In this document: piece after piece, positions 2,792 to 63,447 of the stretch
Numbering within the stretch: position 1 is the first letter of the stretch
Layout: each line of letters starts with the position of its first letter
Translations under genes and position numbers: made by a program
Assembly: GCA_025201365.1 (NCBI GenBank)
Contig: JAIXMF010000009.1
Span: forward strand, 682,001 to 746,000
DNA from: Syncephalis plumigaleata
Taxonomy: Eukaryota; Zoopagomycota; Zoopagomycetes; Zoopagales; Piptocephalidaceae
Length of the DNA: 64,000 nt
Direction: 5' to 3'
The notes under the pieces: model-generated
Database searches by the model: none
Told to the model about the DNA's origin: nothing
What the model saw: the letters and a program-made list of their open reading frames with translations, nothing else

Positions 2792-5299
2792 ATGAAGTAC
2801 AATGCCATAGCAAGGCAGCTGAGTTGGCCTTTCTTAGTGCTTACTGCTGCTACTACTATATGGCCGTTAGCTACGGCTGCCTTCTATTTACCTGGTGTTG
2901 CCCCGCACGATTATCGTCCAGGCGAACGAGTTGACCTCACGGTTAATCCGATAACACCGAAAATTGACAAGCAAGGCAATCAGCTACGTTCTATTATTCC
3001 TTATAATTATTATATGGACAAATTCCACTTTTGTCAGCCGGAAGGAGGACCGCAAAGCCGTTCGGCATCGCTGGGCGCCATTCTATCGGGGGATCGACTC
3101 TATAATTCGCCGTTTAACGTAAGTGACGTATGATAATAGTGACAATAATGATGGCGTAACATAGACAGTCATTAATCGAGTACGGTTATAGTTGATAATG
3201 CTGCGCAATACCACTTGTAACGTGTTGTGTAAAACAGACAGCATCGGCAAAGACGACATCTACTTTATAGCAAATCGAGTCCGTGAACACTACGCGTACA
3301 ACTGGCTTATTGATGGATTGCCCGCGGCCCATATTAAAGTAGATCGACAAACGGGCGAATCCTTCTATAGCGTTGGCTTTGATCTGGGCCAAGTACGCTC
3401 GGATCTTGTGGCCAATAATACCGAATCATCTATACCACCACCTGTCACCCTACACAATCATTACAATATTCGTGTGCAATATCACACAAAGGACAATATC
3501 AATTATCGTATTGTAGGCGTTGTCGTATCACCGTATAGGTAGGAAAGCGATCATTCGTGCTGTATCATTCATAGGAGACATGCTTATTAATGTTTCTATT
3601 TATCTGTGAACAAATGGATATAATAGTAAAAACACGGTATTAAAGCAGGATGGCACATCACAATGTAATACTACTGAACCACTCGTTCTAGATGAACAAC
3701 ATGGTAACTCGGGTATCGTGTATACCTATGATGTATCATGGGAGGTAAGTAGCGATTAATGGAAAAAAGACGACGGTATTATAACTGATGATCATTTAGG
3801 CATCAGATATTCCATGGGGAACTAGATGGGATAGCTACCTACATGTATTCGATCCAAGTATTCATTGGTTTAGGTAAGATGAAGAGGATGAGCTAATAAT
3901 ACTAATAATGCTAATAATACCAACAATAATATGTGTGATATAGCTTAACTATATCGGCTGTCGTAGTAATATTCCTTACTGGTATGGTAGCAATGATTCT
4001 ATTAAAGGCTCTCCACAAGGACATCGCACGTTACAATGTCGATGAGGAACAAGATGATATTCGCGAGGATTTCGGCTGGAAATTAGTACACGGTGATGTA
4101 TTTCGATCACCACCGCACGCCATGCTTCTATCGGTATTGGTGGGCAATGGTGCACAACTATTATGTATGGCGGCGGTAACATTGAGTAAGTGGGCGTTGC
4201 ATACGAAATAGCCTTGTAATCTTACTAATAGTAACACGAATGCATCCTATTTAGTATTTGCCGTGCTTGGATTCCTGTCGCCATCAAATCGCGGTGCACT
4301 CATCACGGTTATCATCACGTTCTACATGCTGTTCGGCTGTGTAGCCGGTTATGTGTCAGCTCGCTTGTACAAGATGTTTGGCGGCGAGGAATGGAAGACG
4401 AACATTGCACTGACTGCATTTTTATTCCCTGGGTGAGTATTCCATGCAGTATAATCCAGGTGTCAATAACAATAAGGATAAGAATCATACGACTAATCCA
4501 GATGATTTAGTATTATTTTCGGTATCATCTTCTTCATTAATATATTTTTACTAAGTGCCCATTCCTCGGATGCAGTGCCATTTGGTACATTGGCCGCATT
4601 GTTTGCCATGTGGTTCTTAGTATCGACACCATTAACGTTTGTGGGTGCCTATTTCGGATTCAAGAAACTAGTAAGCTTTATTATTAATCAATAACAACAA
4701 TAATAATCATTTGTTCTAATATAAATGTACTTCTCTATAGCGAATTGAACATCCAGTACGTACTAATCAGATTCCACGTCAAATACCGGAACAAGCCATC
4801 TATCTACGTCCATTGCCTTCATTACTTATGGCAGGCATACTACCATTTAGCGCTATATTTATCGAGCTCTACTTTATTATGAATAGTATTTGGTATCATA
4901 AAATCTACTACGTATTCGGATTCCTATTATTGGTATTCATCATTGCCGCCATTACTTGCTCGCAGGTAGCGGTACTCATGTGCTACTTCCACCTATGCAC
5001 CGAGGAATATCGATGGTGGTGGCGATCCTTTTTCACCTCGGGTGCATGCGCCCTTTACACATCGGCATTCGCGGTCTACTACTATTACACGCGACTTGAC
5101 ATTGATAGCGTTACGAGTACCGTGTTATACTTTGGCTGGACCGGTATCATGACACTCATGCTTTTCGTTATGACAGGTGAGTGATCAATCACGCGTATGA
5201 TGATATAGACTAATTTATTGTTATCGTGCAGGGGCAATTGGATTTGCAGCATGTCTCTTATTCACTCGAAAAATCTACTCGGCCATTAAAGTGGATTAA
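2792..5299 (+). CDS. Transmembrane 9 superfamily protein (nonaspanin, EMP70/TM9SF)
   Basis: Nine exons (2792-3118, 3192-3538, 3627-3744, 3800-3873, 3944-4185, 4255-4432, 4511-4670, 4741-5176, 5232-5299) splice in frame to 649 aa. A signal peptide (about residues 1-30) precedes FYLPGVAPHDY, the family's usual mature N-terminus, and the lumenal domain has IPYNYYMDKFHFCQP and RNTTCNVLC. The WDSYLHVFDPSIHWF segment leads into nine membrane spans. The protein ends in KVD, matching the family's C-terminal KXD/E Golgi-retention signal. Nonaspanins work in Golgi/endosome membranes in cargo sorting and adhesion-related traffic. The start is the first Met before the signal peptide, and all splice junctions keep family motifs. 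Confidence 0.95.
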
Positions 5300-57267: not shown

Positions 57268-58693
57268 ATGTCTTCTACAGATGATAATAGCCAGTGTCAG
57301 CACGATGCTAACGTTGTCCGCACGGAAACATGGGTTGAACACGATAGTCATCAGTTTTATACGGTCACATATGAGGTAAGCAAATAAACAAATAGACAAC
57401 AGATACATACGCATACCTATAAAGAATACGGTATACTCGTCAATTCAGTTCTGTATGCTTATCCCCTATCTTGATTATGATAATAGCCGAAAGACCAACC
57501 TGTCAAGGCCACCCTCACTGTTGTGCACGGTATAGGCGAGCACATTGATCGATTTGATCATCTCATGCGAGCATTCGCGCAAATTGGCGTACGTTCGCAT
57601 GGCTATGATCAGCGTGGTTTCGGTAAAACAGGGCAGCGCAATGGCATTCCTGGCCATACTGAAGGATTCAAAACGGTACTAAACGATGTGGAGGCAGCGA
57701 ATAAACGTGTTCGTGTCGAGGTCTACCGCACATTCTCGTAAGTTATCAAACTTACAGATAGACGATAGTATAGGACAAGCTAATTAATCAGCAATGTATG
57801 AATAGTATGGTCATTCCATGGGTGGTATGATTGTACTCAACTATGGAGCACTTTGTCATGAAACAGATCCTGTAGACGGCATTATCGCTACAGGTAAGTA
57901 AGCGTAATGTCATTCATTCATTACGATATTGTGCATACAATAAACTAATACTAACGATAATGAATTAGGCCCAGCAATTGCCCTACACAAGTCTGTGCGT
58001 CCCGGTGTAATTAAGCGTACAGGTTTAATGTGTTTGGCGAAAATACTGCCAACTCTTCATATTAATCCTGGCCTCAGTAAGTTGAATGATGTCCCTGATT
58101 ATGCCATGTTACTAATGAGGAGCAACATTGTTAGACGCCAATCATATAAGTCAGGATAAGGAAATAGTAGCGGCATACATAGCAAGCGAGTATAATGTCA
58201 GCTATGCCACATTACGTACACGTAAGTAGACATTGCATTAGTTATACGATATATAATGTTAATTTATATACAACTATAATGCGTGATTAGTCAAGGATCT
58301 AATGAATAATGGCGAGGCATTATTAACGGAAAGATACGCCTACCTTAAAACGCCATTATTGATTGTTCATGGTGCGCAGATCAAATAACTTGGTAACTAC
58401 GAAAATGACTCATTCATCATGGCATATTGTGTGCTAATACGAGCATGACTTCATTCATCTATGAATCTCTAGTCCGGATGCCAGTCAAGAATTCTTTAAC
58501 AAACTACCCAATGATATGGATAAGGAGATTGCAATACTAGAGGATCAATATCATGAAGGTATTTTATTAATTATTTGACTAATGATACATATTAACTTTG
58601 TATACGATATATATTCTAGTTCATAACGAGATTGAAAAGGAGAAAGCCATTAACATAGCGTGTCAATGGATTGAAAAACATATTCAATCGTAA
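57268..58693 (+). CDS. Monoacylglycerol lipase-like alpha/beta hydrolase
   Basis: About seven or eight exons. Motifs: VHGIGEHIDRFDHLMRAFAQ (oxyanion-hole HG), GYDQRGFGKTGQRNG, the nucleophile elbow GHSMGGMIVLNYG, a cap region, then PLLIVHG followed by PDASQEFFNKL, and a C-terminal helix. The layout is that of serine-aminopeptidase-fold lipases (MGLL/Yju3 type) that cleave monoacylglycerols. The start ATG at 57268 is the first in frame. Two junctions do not keep frame: before GHSMGG (57737/57806) and just after VHG (about 58376), each off by one base. The catalytic Ser and likely Asp are still visible; the His lies in a less clear exon near 58500. It is flanked by element copies C and D. Confidence 0.75.
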
Positions 58694-58751
58694 ATGATTC
58701 ACAATCAATGATGACAATGATCATAATGATGATGTCATTTGTTTCGGTCTA

Positions 58752-58777
58752 CAGGCTTTTTCCATCCAATTTGCGCA
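58752..58777 (+). repeat. Left terminal inverted repeat of element D
   Basis: Begins CAGGCTTTTTCCATCC and ends AATTTGCGCA; flanked outside by TA at 58750-58751. Its reverse complement is at 63264-63289 with one mismatch. Confidence 0.92.
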
Positions 58778-58870
58778 GTTAGCCTTCTGTTTTATGAATA
58801 AATGATAGTTATAATAACACTTACAATTACCCTGTATTTTGGGGTGTAGATAGCGATAACTATCACGGAT
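58752..58870 (-). ncRNA. Candidate Fanzor guide (omega) RNA region
   Basis: In TnpB and Fanzor loci the guide RNA comes from the element end just 3' of, and often overlapping, the nuclease gene. Here that is the stretch between the Fanzor stop and the left terminus. It contains a 10-bp perfect inverted repeat, TGATAGTTAT (58803-58812) and ATAACTATCA (58856-58865), whose second arm covers the stop codon. An inner ACCC/GGGT hairpin is also possible. The RNA would read through the terminal repeat, with flanking DNA (below 58750) giving the guide. No transcript evidence; boundaries inferred. Confidence 0.5.
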
Positions 58871-61332
58871 GAATTGTTTTTTGTTGTTTGGTTCCCTCTT
58901 GGTCTTGCTCATCATTGCTTGAACGTTTAGAAGGAACGGCACCTCGTTGGAATTGTGTTGGAATACGGCCTTTAGCACAAAGACCGTGAATAATCTGAAT
59001 AAAATTCAGACATGCAGCCATATCACGATTCCATACACGATACTCGAATTTTTTAATTGGCTTGTTGTCTTTATCCAGCTCGACTTTCTCGTCCTCCGTG
59101 TCCATCATACCCTCTTGAACCTTCTTGTCCTTGATATTCTTCATGGCCTCTTTACAATTTCGATGTGTGCATCTAATAAAATAATTAATTAATATATCAT
59201 GATAAATAGCAAAGTGTAATAAATTGTACTTACCTTAAGAGACCATGTCGAATAACTTTAGGACGTTTTTTCCGTTGATCGGGCCGAGGATTATCGACTG
59301 GCTTGTATGTCTCGAGGGAGGGATTCTTGCACTCGGGACAGCACTTGCTGGTCTTATGCTCATCAATTAGAAAGACTTTAAAATGTTGTTGTATAAGTCT
59401 TCTAAAGCCTTTACCACGTATGGGCTCGTGGTGTTTGGCGGGAGGAGCTGACCAGTTGCCCATCACAAATACCGCCTCCTTACCGAACTTCTTAGTTAGC
59501 TCTTTGATCAGCATTTGATCGCTCTTTTGTTTGTTGATATAAGCCGAGAGCTTTAGCTTTCTAAAAAGAGGCTGGGTGGTAGGACGGGTGGTGGGCTCGG
59601 TGGAGGGCTTAGCGGCAGAATCGGTGATGGGATCGGTGGCAGAATCGGTGGTGGTAGAACGGGTGGCGGGAGGACGGGTGATGGGGGTGGTGAATGTGTC
59701 TCGGTAGAAGCTAGTAAGGACCTCCGAGTGCTGTGATCTGCATCTCAGATAGTCCTTATATTTCTCCAGAGATACAGCGCTGCCCTTGATTTCCGAAAGA
59801 GCTGCCTCGGCATCCAGCACCGCCTGGTTCCCCTTCTTGCACTTCTGGATAATCCTGCGGTATTTCTTCATCCTCCGCATCTTGTCTTGACATTGTTTTG
59901 TGTACCGATATTTCCTTGGCTCATCTGGTGTCGATTTCTCGTGTACACAAAATAGTAAGTCTCTTCTTCCAGGGTCCACCGCCACGCATTTGCCTTTGAT
60001 TTCCTCGTGCTCCTCATCATCTAACTCGGTGATATATCGGATGCGTTCCTCTGTTGATTCCTGTGTTGCTGATTCCTCTGCTGGCTCCTTTGCTGATTTC
60101 GCTCCCCCTTCCTTGGTGACCTTCTTGGTGACCTTCTTGGTGACCTTCTTGATGACCTTCTTGATAACCGTGACGCCAACGCCATCGGTGTCGATCGAGC
60201 CAAAAAATTCGAGCTTGCCACGCATTTGATCCTTGAATACTTTTCGATTGAGCTCCACGACCCGTTCCCAATGTTCCGTCTTCCAAGCCTTAAGCTCTTC
60301 CTCAGTCTTCTTCTTCTTCGCCTTCTTCTTCGCCTTCCCCTCTTCCTTCCCCGCTTCCTCGTCCTTTTTCCTCCTCTTAGCTTCTTCACTCCTACACTTG
60401 CAATTTAATATATTCTGACAAAGGATAGTGGTATCAATGTGAATATAGCAAGGCGAAAATGAACGGCGTAGCGGGAAACATTCAAAAGCCTTTAATTTGA
60501 GGTCTTCGAATAAAAGATCAAGCTTGTAGAATGCTTTGAAATGCATAGCTGGATTTGCTTTACAATCATAATAAATGCTATCCTTTTCAAACTCGTAGCC
60601 CTCAGGATAAGCACTCAAAACATCCCTAAACTTGTCGAATGCCTCAGTGAACGTGGGATCTTCTTTAACCAACTTTTCAAGCCCGCCTCGCTTCGCTATT
60701 GCGGCTTTAAAGTCTTTTACTGGAGTAGTGATAGCACTGATTTCCTCGCAAATCACAGCATCACTTACTCCCTTGGGCAATCCCTCCTTCATAGCCTTTA
60801 TCCGCTCCTTGACATCGAAATGTTTGTTGATGGCGCGTCGAAGATGGTCGGCAAAGTGTAATTTGATGTTGTTGGTATAAGCAACGTAGATTCTAGTTGC
60901 TTCATAGGTAGCCGACTGGCCAGCATTGGCTAATTTTGGCCGTTGATAGCTAGTAGCGGTATGATAATCCTTCCAATGCTTGCTGATCAATTTACGAAAT
61001 TTAACTGTTTCCTCTTTTTGGATCGTGCGTTCTCGCGCACGCTTGACTAAGGAAAGCCACACCTCTTTGAAAAAGTCCTCGAAAATGTATTCCTCAAACT
61101 TGAAGTCTGCATTCCCCTCAAATTCACTGAGAAATATGTACTTTGCAAAAGCATAGGCATGGAAGGTTGTAGTATGCACGGTGTTTACTAGATCGCTTAA
61201 AACACCGCGATACTTATCAGCCCAACCAAGACCAGATATAGAGGACTTTACAGACAGCACTCGTTCACCACTGGCAGAAGATTTGGGTCTGCCTTTAGTT
61301 GACGAGACTTTAGTCCCTGGCGGTGACGCCAT
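58863..61332 (-). CDS. Fanzor (eukaryotic TnpB-like RNA-guided endonuclease), complete
   Basis: Two exons, 61332-59235 plus one base at 59234 and 59172-58863, joined by a 61-bp GTAAGT...TTATTAG intron, give 802 aa. The N-terminal 450 residues (LVNTVHTTTFHAYAFAKYIF and helices) match the recognition part of Fanzor1 proteins. RuvC-I is AVDPGRRDLLFC (Asp near 453). GNWSAPP near 626 matches the Fanzor GDWS-type motif. LIDEHKTSKCCPEC supplies the relocated RuvC glutamate (near 657) and the first zinc-finger Cys pair, CTHRNC the second, and VWNRDMAACLN RuvC-III (Asp near 750). Lys-rich tracts (KKAKKKKTEE and repeated KKVT) may be nuclear signals. Fanzors cut DNA guided by an omega RNA. All catalytic positions are present. 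Confidence 0.93.
60110..60170 (-). repeat. In-frame 12-bp tandem repeat in the Fanzor gene (KKVT units)
   Basis: Four to five copies of a 12-bp unit (plus strand ACCTTCTTGGTG, with small changes) encode repeated Lys-Lys-Val-Thr/Ile between the recognition part and RuvC-I. The result is a flexible, strongly basic linker. Confidence 0.9.
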
Positions 61333-61850
61333 GTAAAAAAAAGGATGGATATCAATGTAATAGTAATACGGTAAAGCGAGAACAGTTATAATATGAAGGC
61401 TTAATTAATCTTTTCTTTTATTGTAGTATAGACGCTTCTTTATATACGTGGCATGTTGGTAGTATTAGCTGCATCAATCTATTGTACAGGGGCGAAACGC
61501 CCTGCAGACACATACAGGAAGGGTGAATCTATTGTCGTAAGCAGTGTCATTTACAGCACAATACAGTAAGATTCGTGTCATCTAGTGTCATTGTAACTTA
61601 GCTACAATGGCATAATGCCAATTATAATTTAGCAATCAATAAGCGTTAATAAGTACTAATGAACTTGTTAATATTTTATTAATTATAATTGAATAGATCC
61701 TTTATTAATAAATGAGCAGAGTTTTGTAACGGGTGTTAATAGATGAATTAGCACTTATTAATGCTTCCATTAGTAACCTTCCCTTAACTCCCTATTAACT
61801 GTTATTAATCTATTTGCTAATTCATCTCTAAATATCTACTTCATTATTAT
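61333..61850. other. Noncoding leader side of element D
   Basis: Upstream of the Fanzor start, AT-rich with TTAATAA repeats at 61620-61800. It should hold the Fanzor promoter. No open frame of interest. In copies A, B and C the F-box gene takes the place just upstream of the Fanzor end. Confidence 0.5.
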
Positions 61851-62600
61851 TTCCTCCTTCTCCTCCTTTACTTCTTTACCAATGCTTTCTTCTTAGTCTT
61901 GACTATATTCCACTTGTCATTCAACAATACATCTCATTTTTGTGCCAACTTCATTTCTCTTTACTTCTTTCTTGTTTAATTTTCTTTATTAGTCAATAAA
62001 AGCATTATTTCCTCCTTTACTTCTTTCAAATACTATCTTATTCGTGCTAACCTCATTTCTCTGCCATTTCCTTTGTCATTCAACAACACGCGCTTTCTTG
62101 ATCTTGCCAACATTCCACTAGTCGTTAACTTCTTTCACCTATTGTTTTCTTCGTGTCAAACACATTCTAGCAGCTTCTATTGCTTCCTTTTTCCCTTTAC
62201 CTCTTTACCAATGTTGTCTGCTTAGCCTTGACTGCATTCCACCTGTCGTTGACTTCTTTCACATACTGTCTTCTTCGTGCCAACTACATTCCCCTGCCAT
62301 TCCCCTTACCCTTAAACAGTAAGTGCCTTCTTTGTGTCAACTACATTCCACTTGTCAGTAAACAACACACGTCTACTTCCTCTTAACTATATGCTAGTTA
62401 TTCCTCTTTCTTTTATTTACCTATTTACTTTCTCAGTAATACGCGTCTTCTTCGTGTCATTCGTATTCCACTTACTTCCCCTCTCACTTTAGCATACACA
62501 TTCCCAATAGCAGCTATTCTGCCATACTATCTCTATGACTTTTATTTATCTCTTTGTTTTCCTTTTCCTCTAACCTATCTACATGCTCACTTGTCGTTAT
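61850..62600 (+). repeat. Pyrimidine-rich degenerate tandem repeats in element D
   Basis: About five to seven diverged units of roughly 80-100 bp, each with the pattern CTTCTTCGTGTCAACTACATT or a close variant, then CCACTTGTCGTT and CTTCTTTC. Parts recur in piece E (13620-13770) and next to copy B (35690-35790, inverted). Open frames here (for example 62180-62386) are low-complexity translations. Confidence 0.75.
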
Positions 62601-62639
62601 TATTACTATACCAATAAGTGTTGTTTATTGTTCGTTCTA

Positions 62640-63140
62640 GTCCTTCGTTTTCTATCACTGTCCTGCTTATTTATCAATGTTTAAACATTTACTGCTCTCG
62701 TTGTAATATGTACCTTTCACTTTTACCACTCTTTTCCGTCATCTGTTTGTATGCCACTATTACGTCATGCTTTTATTTGTATTTTCATTTGTTTACTGCC
62801 ATCTACATACTCTATTCACCACCTACAAGCATACACTGCTTCTTCGAATAAACTGACATACGTGTTCATGCACCCTTTCTTGCTCATTCCTTACTCATTC
62901 GTGACAAGTCAGTCATTCTACTAACTACTGCTTGTTTATTATATTGTTTATCGTGTATTCTATTTGTTCACTCGTTGCTCTCTATGCAATTGACCGTAAG
63001 CATTATCAACATAATATATCTATCAAACTAGTTTATTACTACTTGTAAGTACATGACATGGCAATATCCAACTATACTAGTACACTTGTATCATCTACCT
63101 TATAGAATTGATGATGATAGTTATCGCTATCAATAAATGA
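62640..63140 (+). repeat. Element D internal segment shared with piece F
   Basis: This is the partner of 8080-8520 on the opposite strand. The central 290 bp align with only small differences. No protein I trust is encoded. Confidence 0.7.
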
Positions 63141-63263
63141 TCTATTACTAATACTGAATTGTTATTATTATTATGCTGTGTTAATTGGCATTTCTATGGT
63201 GATAATGGTGTTAATAATTGTGTAAATCTATTTATTAATAAACTGCAAATGCTAAAAGATAAA

Positions 63264-63289
63264 TGCGCAAATTGGATGGAAAAACCCTG
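63264..63289 (-). repeat. Right terminal inverted repeat of element D
   Basis: TGCGCAAATTGGATGG then AAAAACCCTG, followed by TA at 63290-63291. The 60 bp just inside (TTGTGTAAATCTATTTATTA) also occur at the right end of copy A. Confidence 0.92.
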
Positions 63290-63447
63290 TATTATAAGAT
63301 TGGTAATGAGAGTGACATACGATACATTCACTCTATTCCTGATCTCTTTCTAATAAAATCAAGTCTTTCTTCTTGTATTGATCATCGTTTATCATTCACT
63401 GTTTATTTACTTGCTCACCTGTGCTATTGTCGTTGTTGTTGTTTATC

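Follow-up and report, generated by a model that had tools for sequence, protein, structure and literature searches.

A Fanzor1 nuclease gene in a TA-duplicating inverted-repeat element family of Syncephalis plumigaleata, with a candidate guide RNA and gene-less members

Introduction

Fanzor1 elements with TA duplications and Mariner terminal inverted repeats (TIRs), carrying no transposase, have been published (PMC3627910). In Spizellomyces punctatus, 42 Fz and 134 ghost loci are reported, and the omega RNAs (wRNAs) of ghosts work with the nuclease SpuFz1; help in trans by guides from ghost loci is discussed in that report, which calls host genetics necessary (PMC10432273). Here we analyse a stretch of 64,000 nucleotides from the zoopagomycete Syncephalis plumigaleata (contig JAIXMF010000009.1 of assembly GCA_025201365.1, positions 682,001 to 746,000, forward strand; hereafter the window, whose own numbering is used throughout). 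It holds a Fanzor1 gene inside a 4,538-bp element, which belongs to a large family with many gene-less copies (ghosts) in this genome. We put at about 75% the probability that this is the Fanzor1 of a TA-duplicating, cut-and-paste TIR transposon, which takes its guide from the flanking DNA, plays a role in the retention of the element and serves ghosts in trans.

The family resembles Spu-1 and its ghosts in S. punctatus: in both, the element that carries Fanzor1 has inverted repeats and no transposase, the wRNA end is kept by many ghosts, and bases outside the left end are conserved (PMC10432273). In contrast, the terminal repeats and the candidate motif are different, and ends are more numerous here (237 and 248 exact left and right ends, against 42 Fz and 134 ghost loci). 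PUl-4-type elements likewise have Fanzor as their only coding content, along with TIRs and a TA duplication; their TIRs matched a known Mariner family (PMC3627910), whereas here no transposase with the TIRs in question was found among the DDE_3 loci that were read (10 of 31). The TnpB protein of IS200/IS605 is also an RNA-guided nuclease whose guide records the insertion site of its element, and the gene-drive role reported for this bacterial protein (PMC11870625) is the model for the drive idea considered below; the carrier in our case, however, is a eukaryotic TIR/TA element, and drive is only proposed.

Fanzor1 elements with ghosts are already known from S. punctatus (PMC10432273). New here are this particular family, a covarying hairpin, a genome-scale bias of the motif AMTA towards left ends and alleles sharing one site, for all of which we found no precedent in the open-access literature searched; nor did we find there a paper joining Fanzor with Mucoromycota. 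An earlier sequence-only reading of the window stopped at the gene: the element ends, the candidate wRNA and the gene-less copies are additions of the present follow-up.

Results

The gene and its protein product

The gene lies on the minus strand (61332-58863) and encodes 802 amino acids in two exons. Exon 1 (61332-59234) opens with the ATG at 61332, exon 2 (59172-58863) closes with the TGA at 58865-58863, and the 61-nt intron between them (59233-59173) reads GTAAGT...TAG. The sequence-only reading had proposed this two-exon frame, and the motifs it quoted are where it had placed them: AVDPGRRDLL starts at residue 451, GNWS at 625, LIDEHKTSKCCPEC at 655, CTHRNC at 701 and NRDMAACLN at 748. 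Its claim that the intron parts the two zinc-finger halves, CPEC and CTHRNC, was borne out too. Splice pairs were enumerated with GT or GC donors between 59330 and 59180, and the 12 longest were compared; the pair giving 802 residues has a consensus donor. A single pair among them yields a longer frame, of 812 residues, and was rejected: its donor, GTCCTA, is non-consensus, it loses HGLLR, which aligns with the Fanzor1 of Parasitella parasitica (order Mucorales; PpFz1), and it reads the intron as protein. Introns of 60-61 nt were modelled in six of the seven other Fanzor copies tried; no gene model was obtained for the seventh, L016, most likely because DPGRRD was sought and L016 has DPGRRN.

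In a phmmer search against chains of the Protein Data Bank (PDB), the protein matched PpFz1 with an E-value of 1.5e-113, SpuFz1 with 5.7e-32 and GtFz1 of Guillardia with 8.3e-7. PpFz1 (PDB 9cf0-9cf3) scores best among the solved relatives. Its alignment runs from residue 5 to RuvC-III, with an identical order of motifs: stretches 5-312, 351-552 and 590-710 are significant, while 743-776 is not significant alone. Homology to solved Fanzor1 proteins thereby covers most of the chain. Together with a single open frame of 724 codons, these matches show that the gene is not a chance frame.

The catalytic residues of SpuFz1 are D383, E541 and D606 (PMC11423790). In the phmmer alignment they face D453 (codon 59976-59974), E658 (59361-59359) and D750 (59024-59022), the construct offset having been checked for E541. 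The alignment agrees with the intact triad claimed earlier, and also with the placing of the RuvC glutamate, E658, beside the zinc finger. The published Fanzor1 motif, D-X(125,275)-[TS][TS]xx-C4 zinc finger-X(5,50)-RD (PMC3627910), is found as D453, T661-S662, C665/C668, C701/C706 and R749-D750, with spacings of 207 and 42 residues. Pfam returned sub-threshold matches only (OrfB_IS605, E 0.0052; TNB, 0.78), NCBIfam gave 0 matches, and a search of IMG/VR, confined to close relatives, gave none. We firmly assign the gene to Fanzor1. The description of it as a new ortholog is an understatement, the gene being one of 41 Fanzor loci in the genome. The protein is predicted to be catalytically competent, for which its conserved residues and ratios of nonsynonymous to synonymous substitution rates (dN/dS) below 1 give indirect support.

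Within its RuvC domain, PpFz1 carries the FRI insertion of ~100 amino acids, which binds cyclophilin (PMC11423790). This insertion is absent here, with a variable Pro/Thr-rich linker in its place: 37 residues (553-589) are unmatched, against 105 in PpFz1, and the linker from FYR to FRK measures 15-48 residues in the 26 of 31 Fanzor copies where it is readable. The genome supplies a PpFz1-related Fanzor1 without the cyclophilin-binding insertion. Minisatellites of 12-15 nt also occur in the coding sequence (59575-59692 and 60112-60171); they encode the Thr/Pro-rich linker and a KKVT repeat, and the length of the linker varies among copies.

Element boundaries and family size

The element (58752-63289, minus strand) has its left end at 63289 and its right end at 58752, each next to a TA duplication (63290-63291 and 58750-58751, respectively). 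The right TIR (58752-58777, minus strand) is of the CAGGC type; the left one (63264-63289, minus strand) has CAGGG, where most left ends read have CAGTG. The two arms, 58750-58786 and 63255-63291, are 37 nt long and 89% complementary. Inside the window, the 21-nt TIR core occurs in two places, which are the element's own ends, and in none of the shuffles. TA was present in 36/36 left-end and 62/63 right-end flanks tabulated, three ends with unclassified heads being omitted. With TIRs and a TA duplication, these ends are Tc1/mariner-like.

Across the 32.6-Mb genome, the TIR core is found exactly in 616 places and its reversed-pattern control in 0. Counting as an exact end the TA plus the 26-nt repeat, we obtained 237 left ends of the CAGTG type and 248 right ends of the CAGGC type, roughly one each per element. 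The Fanzor protein matches at least 107 stretches of the genome, which group into 41 loci, partial loci included; most family members are therefore without a Fanzor gene. Over residues 1-701, the window copy has three close counterparts with 94-97% identity elsewhere in the genome, and the RuvC motifs DPG, LIDEH.TS and WNRDMAACLN are all present in 23 of the 30 Fanzor loci read (L009-L038). Among seven modelled copies (L016 was omitted), dN/dS ranges from 0.22 to 0.48 over 21 pairs, the sequence signature of purifying selection for coding function.

A covarying hairpin at the right end

A hairpin that we call SL1, GATAG-UUAUCG-CUAUC, overlaps the stop codon of the gene (58849-58864, minus strand), and is the candidate 5' stem of a wRNA. 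The candidate scaffold would run from the stop codon to the element end (58752-58865, minus strand), as suggested by right-end matches and low ghost divergence. Beyond it, the published layout of Fanzor wRNAs and the sequence predict a guide region in the flanking host DNA, TAGACCGAAACAAATGACAT... (58731-58751, minus strand). The start of the stem falls within the stop codon here, an arrangement like that of Fanzor loci with gene-overlapping wRNA (PMC10432273).

Among the Fanzor loci L009-L038, we surveyed 27 at the right end. In 25 of these, a hairpin with five or more pairs and UAUCG as its loop core (UAUCA in L012) lies near the stop codon; in L032 and L036, and also in the interrupted copy L049, four of five pairs are formed. 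Stems vary in sequence: GATAG/CTATC in the window, GTGATGG/CTATCAC, GGTTG/CAACC, GATTG/CAATC and GTGGC/GCCAC elsewhere. In ten distinct versions of equal length, hand-picked from nine Fanzor loci and the ghost L003, 50 of 50 cells pair, and two of the five pairs are changed on both sides. This pairing was matched by 1 in 10,000 column shuffles, and sliding the partners by 1-2 left 9-22 of 50 cells paired. Another 26 right ends, selected for their similarity, retain SL1 without exception (partly by virtue of that choice; one of them, L078, is a Fanzor copy). Two ghosts found by their TIR alone, L003 and L004, keep it as well, and L005 has four of five pairs; low-complexity matches (L008, L085, L087) were not counted.

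The left end holds a copy of a 17-nt palindrome (63115-63131, minus strand), a perfect inverted repeat with 58849-58865. In L005 and L049 it is still GATAG despite altered stems at the right end; in L004 it is decayed and does not track the GGTTG of the right end. With no co-variation, it was rejected as a partner of the right-end hairpin. An AGGCT/AGCCT pairing near the right end, inspected by eye, gave no clear covariation, and an Rfam search gave 0 matches. One alignment misplaced the hairpin because some copies carry an extra one, and was not used for any count.

Gene-less members

The terminal 131 nt (58750-58880) match 40 scored genome places at 91-100% identity (from 549 first-look candidates), and 35 of these are not at any of the 41 Fanzor loci. 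When 28 short elements were set beside that of the window, the short members proved to be internal-deletion derivatives. The ~550-nt class joins element positions 1-251 to about 4245-4538; the ~1,090-nt class combines ~90 nt from the left with other DNA and with pieces from the region of the intron and exon 2; the ~200-240-nt class has the left 74-176 nt plus the right ~61 nt.

We compared 14 of the 16 elements of the ~550-nt class, omitting the divergent L003 and L005. On average, pairs differ by 8.8% in the dead coding sequence and by 1.1% over the 50 nt that follow the stop codon (element 4428-4477, window 58862-58813); the figures are 7.7% for the 35 nt beyond and 1.0% for the right TIR. 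Because right-end similarity was the basis on which these ghosts were selected, the contrast has meaning only within the right end. Separately, a block near the left end (63113-63039, element 177-251) diverges by 2.9% among the same ghosts, against 8.5% in adjoining sequence. It contains ACTTACAAGTA, the reverse complement of a conserved right-end motif, and may possibly be a promoter of the gene and of ghost RNA.

A candidate target-adjacent motif

Read inwards, AMTA stands outside 112/237 left ends, versus 48/248 right ends (Fisher p 6e-11). Its background at TA sites of the window is 19.5% and 18.6% on the two strands, so that right ends are at background genome-wide. At the window element, the left TA together with 63292-63293 reads AATA in the Fanzor sense, and either AATA or ACTA is found at the left end of all four full-length intact copies in which this end was read. 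AMTA is thus a candidate target-adjacent motif (TAM). For comparison, PpFz1 has a wRNA of 75 nt and the TAM ATN (PMC11423790). Such asymmetry would be unexpected from a transposase that treats TA symmetrically. The right end reads TGTA instead of AMTA, and an occupied site would therefore be spared.

Alleles sharing one insertion site

In the assembly, the TA that holds a full-length Fanzor copy at 287 kb of contig C373 is occupied by a ghost of 548 nt on contig C174, which is 20 kb long. Their flanks differ at 9/882 and 24/949 sites (1.0% and 2.5%), versus 21/248 and 20/294 sites for the element ends (8.5% and 6.8%; Fisher 7e-10). Because its ends have diverged from those of the full-length allele as much as unrelated copies have from each other, the ghost was not formed by deletion in place; its breakpoint is that of the ~550-nt class.

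The element is more divergent than the shared right flank in three of four further pairs: 7.05% against 0% in L059/L063, whose left flanks match for only 36 nt, 2.9% against 0.4% in L021/L024, and 4.6% against 2.1% in L071/L074. The fourth pair, L011/L078, shows no excess element divergence (0.5%, flank 0.8%). L034 and L038 also share a right flank (87% over 62 nt), which is too short for comparison. One member of each of the five compared pairs sits on a contig of 20-56 kb (C174, C325, C28, C365 and C26).

Partner transposase and other features

DDE_3 has 31 matches in the genome, and in the 10 loci that were read no matching TIR lies within 1.5 kb. Genome searches with DDE_1, HTH_Tnp_Tc5 and Transposase_1 gave no matches, yet their controls were silent too. 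L049 was considered as an autonomous element with both Fanzor and a Tc1 transposase and rejected: the transposase frame lies inside the interrupted Fanzor gene, a nested insertion. This frame (L049:2607-3746) encodes a 380-residue Tc1-like (DDE_3) transposase, and DDE_3 frames of 380 residues occur at three other loci. Correctly oriented TIR pairs outside Fanzor loci are found at C115:2309-6675 (~4.4 kb), C112:397107-405665 (~8.6 kb) and C112:994943-996985 (~2.0 kb), which are possible homes of the partner transposase.

The long 5' non-coding part of the window element (61333-63114, minus strand; ~1.8 kb) is pyrimidine-rich on the plus strand and contains degenerate direct repeats. No transposase was found in it, three of its open frames having been compared with Pfam and none scoring above the curated cut-off; most of this stretch is missing from the short members read. 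Next to the element, a gene with several introns (57487-58693) seems by eye to end ~60 nt from the right end. It begins with a Hydrolase_4 domain (PF12146, E 1.1e-16 for 57487-57738).

Discussion

We propose the following mechanism. The element would be a cut-and-paste TIR transposon with TA duplication and Tc1/mariner-like ends, needing a transposase from elsewhere. Its wRNA would be read from the 3' end of the gene, with SL1 over the stop codon, the scaffold extending to the right end and the adjoining host DNA as guide. At an occupied site, the guide target would be preceded by the element's own end (TGTA), and hence spared. After loss of the element, and likewise on an allele without it, the AMTA of the left flank would adjoin the target and Fanzor could cut; repair from the element-bearing chromatid or homologue would restore the element. 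Ghosts with a preserved guide-RNA end would be served by the nuclease in trans. From these sequence patterns we infer transcription, use of the guide, cutting and a role in retention or drive; RNA-guided retention is the best-supported, though still hypothetical, reading.

A more far-reaching version is that the TIR family uses Fanzor for allele-level retention and drive: ghost guides would be directed against their own empty sites, the nuclease would cut element-free homologues in trans, and repair through the shared ends would swap one member for another at a given site. We regard this as speculative and probably wrong in its full form. If such retention and drive were real, their fossil record would consist of the bias of AMTA towards left ends and of the divergent alleles found at one site.

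Several observations weigh against the explanation that we prefer. For the site of the window element itself, the assembly contains neither a second allele nor an empty copy, and no partner transposase was found in the searches made (the DDE_3 loci read and three further families, the latter with silent controls). The alignment stretches bearing D750 are short and non-significant alone (i-Evalue 15 with PpFz1, 1.2e3 with SpuFz1). The column shuffle applied to SL1 does not control for relatedness, and six versions were omitted from the count for a longer apical loop or an imperfect stem; on recount, two of them pair at 5/5 positions and four at 4/5. Estimates of conservation are biased, since right-end similarity led to most of the ghosts read. 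SL1 is missing from 8/8 members of the ~200-240-nt class that were read, so not all small copies are guide-RNA ghosts. As to AMTA, 33 elements read at both ends have it at 21 left versus 11 right ends (p 0.026), a weaker signal than the genome-wide one, in which right ends (11/33) exceed background; CATA stands at the left end of the interrupted copy L049; and the excess could stem from a transposase that docks asymmetrically.

The last point belongs to an alternative in which Fanzor1 is a mere passenger: the transposase does everything, AMTA is an orientation-dependent target preference, and ghosts are miniature inverted-repeat transposable elements whose right end binds the transposase. The short members without SL1 speak for it, since the hairpin is then not needed for spread, as do the different ends (CAGTG and CAGGC), which make asymmetric docking possible. 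Coding copies, however, stand at a dN/dS of 0.22-0.48. SL1 also keeps its pairing through sequence change while the left-end palindrome does not track it, which suits an RNA structure better than a DNA-binding site; on balance we find the passenger explanation rather unlikely. Domestication by the host, with an immobile Fanzor gene, would fit the insertion between genes and the single allele in the assembly, but the intact ends, the TA duplication and the three near copies elsewhere in the genome (94-97% over residues 1-701) make it highly implausible.

For the same-site alleles alone, there is a further explanation, which is compatible with RNA-guided retention: ordinary ectopic gene conversion or mis-assembly of repeats, with no role for Fanzor. 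Dispersed repeats often undergo conversion, each compared pair has one member on a contig of 20-56 kb, and L011/L078 is without excess element divergence. Against this, at the C373/C174 site some 0.9 kb of flank can be aligned to the left and to the right, while the element ends are far more divergent. We would give this account of the alleles slightly less than even odds.

This genome is suited to asking what role Fanzor plays for its carriers. Intact copies, ghosts whose guide-RNA end can be defined, the AMTA prediction and a site with different members on two contigs together let models of retention, drive and passenger status be told apart by predictions that can be checked. The family is unusually informative on the natural role of Fanzor for its carrier elements.

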